From Pirellulales bacterium (GTDB taxonomy: Bacteria; Planctomycetota; Planctomycetia; Pirellulales; UBA7805): DNA of 33,599 bases. Positions 19,542 through 27,911 of this stretch are shown here, piece after piece; position 1 is the stretch's first letter; every line of letters starts with the position of its first letter. Under the pieces are notes generated by a model. The model searched no databases and was not told where the DNA came from. It saw nothing but the letters and a program-made list of their open reading frames with translations. The stretch lies in the NCBI GenBank assembly GCA_029245145.1, contig JAQWPY010000011.1:1-33599 (forward strand), read 5' to 3'. Position numbers and translations under genes: made by a program.

Positions 19542-20057
19542 CTAGCTGGGGCTCATCTCGCGAAGGGCGTCTGCAGGGAGAGGAATGCCCCGGATGGAGC
19601 CCTCGACCACAAGATTCTCATTCACAAACCCCATGAAGTCGCAAAGCACGAGGGCACCGCGGCGGGCTCGTTTCTGCTGACATTGAATCACCAGGCGATC
19701 CCCCGGACGGACTGCTCCACGAAAACGCACCCCATCCATGCCGCCGAATCCCATCATCTCACAACCCATCATGTCGTACTTCTGAACAAAATAGGATGCC
19801 AACTGGGCAGCCGCCTCACACATCAATACGCCCGGCATCAGCGGCAGGCCCGGCATGTGGCCTCGCACCCAAAAATCATCCATTGATGTATCCGCATAAC
19901 CCACGATCGATTTCGCATCGAAATCTTCGAAAACTACGGCCGTGAGTTGCTCGATCTCGTACCGCTGTGGATTGTACTTACGGATCAAATCGATGTCCGC
20001 AATGACATGGTCCACATCGTACTTCGAAAATGGAATGAGCGGCTCTTTGGTTGCCAC
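19542..20057 (-). CDS. fabZ: 3-hydroxyacyl-ACP dehydratase, FabZ-like
   Basis: Hotdog catalytic motif 'GHMPGLPLMPGVLMCEAAAQLASYF', 'FGGMDGVRFRGAVRPGDRLVIQCQ'. GTG start at 20057, 1 nt after the stop of the small basic ORF. Confidence 0.85.
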   Translation of the reverse strand: MATKEPLIPFSKYDVDHVIADIDLIRKYNPQRYEIEQLTAVVFEDFDAKSIVGYADTSMDDFWVRGHMPGLPLMPGVLMCEAAAQLASYFVQKYDMMGCEMMGFGGMDGVRFRGAVRPGDRLVIQCQQKRARRGALVLCDFMGFVNENLVVEGSIRGIPLPADALREMSPS

Positions 20058-20058
20058 G

Positions 20059-20157
20059 TTATGTCTTTACCCTTCTCCGCTTCGACTTGCGGGCTTTGCT
20101 ATTTGCAGGCCGCTTGCCATGATTTGCTTTTTTCGCGACTCTTCCAGGTTTTGCCAT
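20059..20157 (-). CDS. 32-aa highly basic small protein, ribosomal-small-protein-like (candidate bL37-like); not in the supplied ORF track
   Basis: Direct translation of the minus strand: MAKPGRVAKKANHGKRPANSKARKSKRRRVKT*. 8 Lys + 6 Arg, no Asp/Glu. GGAG 10 nt before the ATG (GGAGATGATGACAG-ATG). The stop TAA is separated from the fabZ GTG by 1 nt. 'KANHGKRP' matches my recollection of actinobacterial bL37 (not verified). Confidence 0.72.
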   Translation of the reverse strand: MAKPGRVAKKANHGKRPANSKARKSKRRRVKT

Positions 20158-20208
20158 CTGTCATCATCTCCGCATAAGACCAGAACAAAAGTATGGGAAC
20201 ACATACCG

Positions 20209-26340: not shown

Positions 26341-26685
26341 CTACGCCGTACCAAGCGTCTCACCGATACGACGGACTGCCGTCTGTAAAGATCGTCGCGC
26401 CATCTGAAAATTCATGTGCGTGGAAATATCAGGTTGCAATTCCGCGAATTGTTCATTTGCATTCTTCAAACGGTGCCACTTGCGCGTGGCCTGACCTAAA
26501 TATCCCTCGGCATCCCGTTTATCCCAAAACACCCCCAGCGCGTGAGTGTAATCGTAGAGCATGCGATGAACCTTCTGTAAATCCTCATCTTCCTCGGCCT
26601 CCTCGGAATGCTTGAGAAAGGTCCGCACCATCCAGACGTGGGTCAACAAGTCATCGACCTGCTCCATCTTTTCCGATGCACTCAT
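26341..26685 (-). CDS. Hypothetical all-helical protein (114 aa)
   Basis: ORF with ATG between two minus-strand genes: MSASEKMEQVDDLLTHVWMVRTFLKHSEEAEEDEDLQKVHRMLYDYTHALGVFWDK... No family recognised. Confidence 0.65.
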   Translation of the reverse strand: MSASEKMEQVDDLLTHVWMVRTFLKHSEEAEEDEDLQKVHRMLYDYTHALGVFWDKRDAEGYLGQATRKWHRLKNANEQFAELQPDISTHMNFQMARRSLQTAVRRIGETLGTA

Positions 26686-26723: not shown

Positions 26724-27911
26724 CTATGAAGATATCTCATCGCTTCCATCATCAAACTCCGAGTCCCTCTCCGTCGCGACCTCATCGGGCGAAGCGCCTT
26801 CACGCAGTCCATTTCTCTCCGTTTGAGGAGACTCGATTTCTTCGACTCCATGATGATGCGCATCGGTGGTCTCCGGCGATTTTATTTTATCCTGCTTCGA
26901 TACTTTCTTTTCGCCCTCACTCGCCTTCTTCTTTCCGGCAGTTCCTTTCGGTGAAAAGACGAGAACAATCGCAGAGCCGCCAATCACGAGAATTAATCCC
27001 GCAAAGAAAAATGGGCTGAGGGGGTCGCCCTCTCCCCTGGTCGTGAGCGCCCAGAGCGTGTTGACCACCGGCGCGCTACCGAAAACCAGCGGCATCACAT
27101 AGATCGGTTTACCACCCCAATTAAAGGCCATAATGATTCCCAAGGAACCAAAAACACCAGCCGCACCGGCTGCCAAACTCCACACCGTTCCGCTGAAGGC
27201 TGAGACACCACTTCCGCTAAAGGTTGCCCAACCCCCATCGACGCCTCCGGTCAGCATGACGGCAGGAATCAGAACTGCAATTGCAAAATAAGCCAGTCCG
27301 ACGCAAAGCAACGGCCGTAACCGACTTCCCTGCATTTTCATCTGGCCCTTATGGAGAAAAGGCCCGTAAGCGCCCCAGCAAACGACTGTCCCGGCGATGG
27401 AGGCGATCAGTCCGAGTATGAAAAGCGAGTTATTCGCCGCCTCCTGACTTGGGGGTGCCGGCTTAGTGATCAACACGGTCACGGCACCTAAAATGACCAT
27501 CATCAATCCGGCAATGAAGACCGAACCGATTTCTCGCGTCAAATTATTCATCTTGGCGGAAATCAGCGAGTTAATGATCGGGGCACCGCCAAAGACAATC
27601 GGCATCACAACCACAGGATTGCCACCACTCTTGAACGCCAGGATGATGCCGAGGGCCCCCAGAGCACCTGTCGCACCCGCCATCAAACTCCAAAAACTCC
27701 CCCCGACGGTCCAACTTCCTGCTTCACCTCGGGTGCGCAGCCAAGCGGCCGGTACCGCCACTGCAATAAAAAAGTAGGCGACACCAACGAAAAAAAAGGG
27801 GAGTAATCGGCCCCCACCCATCCCCTTGATGCCGTGATGCAGCACCGGACCGTAGAGTCCCCAACTGAGAACGGTTAATGCAATCGCACCAATGACCAAT
27901 AAAAATCGCAC
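26724..27911 (-). CDS. DMT/EamA-like integral membrane protein with two homologous 5-TM halves and charged C-terminal tail
   Basis: About 10 hydrophobic segments. Internal repeat: 'GLYGPVLHHGIKGMGGGRLLPFFFVGVAYFFIAVAVPA' vs 'GAYGPFLHKGQMKMQGSRLRPLLCVGLAYFAIAVLIPA', and 'WSLMAGATGALGALGIILAFKSGGNPVVVMPIVFGGAPIIN' vs 'WSLAAGAAGVFGSLGIIMAFNWGGKPIYVMPLVFGSAPVVN'. Confidence 0.85.
   Translation of the reverse strand: MRFLLVIGAIALTVLSWGLYGPVLHHGIKGMGGGRLLPFFFVGVAYFFIAVAVPAAWLRTRGEAGSWTVGGSFWSLMAGATGALGALGIILAFKSGGNPVVVMPIVFGGAPIINSLISAKMNNLTREIGSVFIAGLMMVILGAVTVLITKPAPPSQEAANNSLFILGLIASIAGTVVCWGAYGPFLHKGQMKMQGSRLRPLLCVGLAYFAIAVLIPAVMLTGGVDGGWATFSGSGVSAFSGTVWSLAAGAAGVFGSLGIIMAFNWGGKPIYVMPLVFGSAPVVNTLWALTTRGEGDPLSPFFFAGLILVIGGSAIVLVFSPKGTAGKKKASEGEKKVSKQDKIKSPETTDAHHHGVEEIESPQTERNGLREGASPDEVATERDSEFDDGSDEISS

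Follow-up and report, generated by a model that had tools for sequence, protein, structure and literature searches.

A short planctomycete gene that very probably encodes ribosomal protein bL37, and a likely relative in ciliate mitoribosomes

The Locus and Its Neighboring Genes

The window analyzed here, a 33,599-nt stretch of DNA from a Pirellulales bacterium, carries on its reverse strand a short ORF that encodes MAKPGRVAKKANHGKRPANSKARKSKRRRVKT followed by a stop (Table 1). Re-translation reproduced exactly the coordinates, strand and 32-aa length given in the initial annotation, as well as its composition, with 14 Lys/Arg among the 32 residues and no Asp or Glu. In-frame TGA TGA codons close the frame just 5' of the ATG, which leaves this ATG as the sole plausible start. 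The GGAG that had been reported upstream is present, and Shine-Dalgarno-like tetramers are enriched across the copies of this gene, preceding 47 of the 62 distinct bL37 loci against 9.7 expected. Among the 177 ATG ORFs of 24-60 aa in the window, no other combines at least 40% Lys/Arg with zero acidic residues, and 60 base-shuffled windows yielded no ATG ORF of 24-60 aa that was as basic. An Rfam search at the locus found no leader, and no convincing promoter or terminator was found there.

Table 1. Features of the bL37 locus, with positions in the window
Feature	Position	Strand	Basis
Probable bL37 gene, 32 aa + TAA stop	20059..20157	-	Sequence, full-length match to NF047429, conservation
Conserved core KKANHGKRP, codons 9-17	20107..20133	-	Alignment invariants
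Basic C-terminal arm, codons 18-32, planctomycete-specific	20062..20106	-	Missing from 24-aa actinobacterial bL37; model m1c6dcb3cde4a
GGAG, Shine-Dalgarno-like	20168..20171	-	Sequence; 10 nt 5' of the bL37 ATG
FabA/FabZ-like dehydratase gene, 171 aa, GTG start	19542..20057	-	PF07977, 78.8 bits

The upstream neighbor is trpD, and downstream a single nucleotide separates the TAA from the GTG of the next ORF (TAA-C-GTG). That ORF had been named fabZ, and the name stands only in part: the FabA-like domain PF07977 is there, but the scores fall below the FabZ equivalog cut-offs (76.8 vs 113 bits and 73.8 vs 155 bits). Of 30 genomes from the order, 29 have a FabA/FabZ-like gene 3' of bL37 in the same orientation, and trmB often comes next, so the proposed synteny holds, but the 1-nt junction that had suggested translational coupling is confined to the seven closest genomes, and elsewhere in the order the spacing ranges from about 37 to 480 nt. 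Coupling to the fabZ-like gene is plausible locally, but it is not what keeps the bL37 ORF. The persistent adjacency and the tight junction in seven genomes might also be explained if the ORF were a leader peptide for the fabZ-like gene, its translation mattering more than its product; we consider this very improbable, since the spacing is so variable, since bL37 persists outside the order, where the link is not seen, with no fabZ-like neighbor, and since the protein sequence itself is under strong purifying selection, with conservation that follows the amino acids. Elsewhere in the window, the reverse-strand ORFs 26341-26685 (114 aa) and 26724-27911 (395 aa) have no Pfam match.

Conservation and Selection

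Conservation in relatives and a bias toward synonymous substitution had been named as checks on this ORF, and both were observed. The ORF is present in 54 of 58 genomes related to that of the window; in four genomes from the order, complete in other respects, no match rose above noise. Between the copy in the window (L001) and those of six relatives (L002-L007), pN/pS was 0.02-0.09; L001 and L003, for example, differ by 13 synonymous changes vs one nonsynonymous change. Across 30 genomes, the codon-position entropy was 1.35 at third positions vs 0.48 at first and 0.39 at second positions. Taken as comparative sequence evidence, these patterns indicate that the ORF is a real, conserved gene whose protein is under strong purifying selection. 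Its short length might have suggested a chance ORF, a reading that we regard as practically discounted, as it is already refuted by the conservation, by the match to a curated family described below and by the shuffled controls. One genome (G002) carries two copies, 97% and 94% identical to that of the window; its contamination is 8%, which probably accounts for the duplication.

Family Assignment and Distribution

The 32-residue product matched the NCBIfam model NF047429 ("ribo_Plancto_bL37"), an equivalog model with a curated cut-off of 40, at 56.9 bits and over positions 1-32 of 32, with no notable difference from the family. Against NF047428, which models the actinobacterial or mycobacterial bL37, it scored 16 bits, below the cut-off of 30, and no Pfam family matched it at E values up to 10, so that bTHX, bS22/COX24, bL34 and bL36 are thus unmatched. 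Among 14 named control genomes, NF047429 matched Corynebacterium glutamicum alone. In the wide sense of the name, a small and basic protein with a [K]ANHGKRP core, the product is a bL37. We conclude from these matches that the gene very likely encodes the planctomycete form of 50S ribosomal protein bL37. The proposal of a longer bL37-like protein outside Actinobacteria is borne out by the score above the NF047429 cut-off and by the link to the actinobacterial form, which beats shuffled controls (see below).

The further suggestion that such a protein is routinely missed by annotation needs to be narrowed. NCBI already models exactly this family, which is known to its curators, and the present protein is an ordinary new member of it. 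In a survey of 199 genomes of the phylum, 57 matched NF047429 and 62 matched a wider profile at E <= 0.01, and several distant copies that are clear by eye, for example MAKNQRRPKKANHGKRPCSHHGRWKRRVKTPR, lie below the NF047429 cut-off, indicating that the curated threshold is too strict for the more divergent copies in the phylum. Such divergent copies occur among loci L043-L077 (e.g., L048, L051 and L056) and would probably go unnamed in annotation, so that NF047429 could usefully be broadened. Roughly two in three of these 199 genomes had no bL37 match, which may reflect either loss or divergence beyond detection. No bL37 was found in plasmids or phages.

Beyond the phylum, profile A1 at E <= 0.01 gave matches at the chance rate in Alphaproteobacteria (2 of 190), Chloroflexota (2 of 151) and Acidobacteriota (1 of 149). 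This profile recovers the short form of Actinobacteria poorly (4 of 120, whereas NF047428, run at a looser threshold, gave 26 of 120), so its negatives do not exclude short versions of bL37. One of the two Chloroflexota matches, in L121, a genome from the phylum of an Anaerolineales MAG, is a 26-aa GTG-started ORF, VSKKHDKRRQRRKKPANHGKRPLCGR, which with a Met start scores 29.5 bits vs the NF047428 cut-off of 30; judged by its sequence, it looks like a true actinobacterial-type bL37 in Chloroflexota.

Comparison with Actinobacterial bL37

Actinobacterial bL37 (NF047428; chains in PDB 5o60, 7kgb and 8crx) shares with the planctomycete protein the MAK- start, the KANHGKRP core and a strongly basic composition. 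In an alignment of 28 sequences, planctomycete and actinobacterial ones together, M1, N12, H13, G14, R16 and P17 are invariant. The comparison with bL37 that had been called for was made with hhalign, in which the planctomycete and actinobacterial profiles scored 36.5, against 15.9 for the best of 100 column shuffles, over 13-15 aligned columns only. The solved bL37 chains were recovered by a mixed profile, which itself contains bL37 rows, and weakly by a planctomycete-only profile.

The two forms differ in architecture. The actinobacterial protein, 24 aa long, consists of an N-terminal helix followed by the loop KANHGKRPN (PMC5876184) and has no C-terminal arm, whereas in the planctomycete protein the stretch N-terminal to the core is about five residues shorter and the core is followed by a basic arm of 15 residues. 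About eight residues precede the core in MAKPGRVAKKANHGKRPANSKARKSKRRRVKT, vs an N-terminal helix of about 13 residues, with a loop after it, in Actinobacteria, an arrangement that need not be a defining trait of the wider family. AlphaFold placed a helix at residues 20-31 with modest confidence (mean pLDDT 71.7, pTM 0.30, for a single chain modeled without rRNA). This predicted helix would lie on the opposite side of the core from that of Actinobacteria, and an identical fit in the ribosomal pocket cannot be assumed.

A Likely Relation to Tetrahymena mL102

A single-sequence search of the PDB with the planctomycete protein returned only the Tetrahymena mitoribosomal protein mL102, at E = 0.08, and profiles were therefore used. 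When the planctomycete-only profile was compared with all PDB chains, the top match was again mL102 (6z1p_AQ, residues 62-87, E = 3.8e-7), followed by M. tuberculosis bL37 (0.0016); the PDB is rich in basic ribosomal tails, yet the best unrelated chain reached only 0.18. The mL102 stretch scored 34.9 bits, and none of its 20,000 shuffled versions exceeded 15.0; against NF047429 it scored 25.3 bits (E = 1.4e-5), which is below the cut-off of 40. The actinobacterial bL37 profile did not find mL102.

The matching stretch, residues 62-87 of 109, is RNARPPKKANHGARPCSSVMRRLKKK, and it aligns with profile positions 3-28, so that the shared element includes the C-terminal arm as well as the core. In mL102, this element is embedded in a longer eukaryotic protein, and Tetrahymena mitoribosomes differ in having no 5S rRNA. 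The protein was placed between the central protuberance and the L7/L12 stalk, and was published as newly identified with bL37 unmentioned (PMC7326499). Our literature search found no paper linking bL37 with mL102. An unrelated protein of plant mitoribosomes is also named mL102. On the strength of these profile matches, we consider homology between mL102 and planctomycete-type bL37, in which the arm follows the core, rather probable; this would make bL37 a ribosomal component of wider occurrence, with an arm that could come near the A-site tRNA. A genome-wide pattern scan for the mL102-like motif ANHGARPC gave six loci, of which the only bL37 ORF was the one in Planctomycetota; the other five were chance frames and not bL37, so no alphaproteobacterial source was found.

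The small number of columns aligned with actinobacterial bL37 leaves some room for a basic RNA-binding micro-protein, such as an assembly factor, an RNA chaperone or an antimicrobial-like peptide, that resembles bL37 in the short core only; C. acnes bL37 as a free peptide inhibits the growth of staphylococci, and extra-ribosomal effects are thus possible (PMC10085706). We nevertheless regard such a micro-protein as improbable, because the identity in the core is far above shuffled controls, the sole solved match other than bL37 is itself a ribosomal large-subunit protein, and the gene was not found on plasmids or phages.

Proposed Placement in the Ribosome and Origin

The bL37 proteins of M. 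smegmatis and C. acnes lie deep within a pocket below the 5S tip that is lined by H39, H40, the H41/H42 joint, H72 and H89, and there they contact H89 on its buried face, at the peptidyl transferase center (PMC5876184; PMC10085706). No planctomycete ribosome structure was found. By homology, planctomycete bL37 most likely occupies the corresponding rRNA pocket, next to helix 89 and below the tip of 5S rRNA: its core loop would enter this pocket of the 23S rRNA, and the protein would stiffen H89 beside the peptidyl transferase center, as in mycobacteria and Cutibacterium. The basic C-terminal helix may leave the pocket, either clamping neighboring rRNA or reaching toward the A-site tRNA arm; this role is suggested more weakly, by likeness to the C-terminus of mL102, which reaches toward the A-site tRNA arm.

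The pocket also bears on the origin of bL37. In Borrelia, uL30 is extended at its N-terminus and fills the pocket with this extension, and bL37 has been proposed to derive from a longer uL30 (PMC10618245). The Borrelia element is part of uL30, a protein that is undetectable in Planctomycetota: none of the 199 genomes from the phylum had a uL30 (PF00327) match above the cut-off, with 13 of 14 control genomes positive, in agreement with the published absence of L30 from the PVC group (PMC7203096). With uL30 undetected in these 199 genomes, bL37 is independent of it here, and an origin by splitting of uL30 would require the later loss of uL30 in this phylum.

Significance

The interest of the locus lies in the wider distribution of bL37, its altered architecture and the lead to mL102, rather than in the ORF itself. 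bL37 has been described as confined to actinobacteria or mycobacteria (PMC5876184; PMC10618245). Its planctomycete form shows that the protein is more widespread than described, and that it has a changed architecture in a phylum in which uL30 is missing. If the relation to mL102 is true, bL37 would be common to Actinobacteria, Planctomycetota, some Chloroflexota and ciliate mitochondria. Should mL102 be the mitochondrial form of bL37, this ciliate protein would acquire a relative in bacteria, and its predicted location would be at helix 89.
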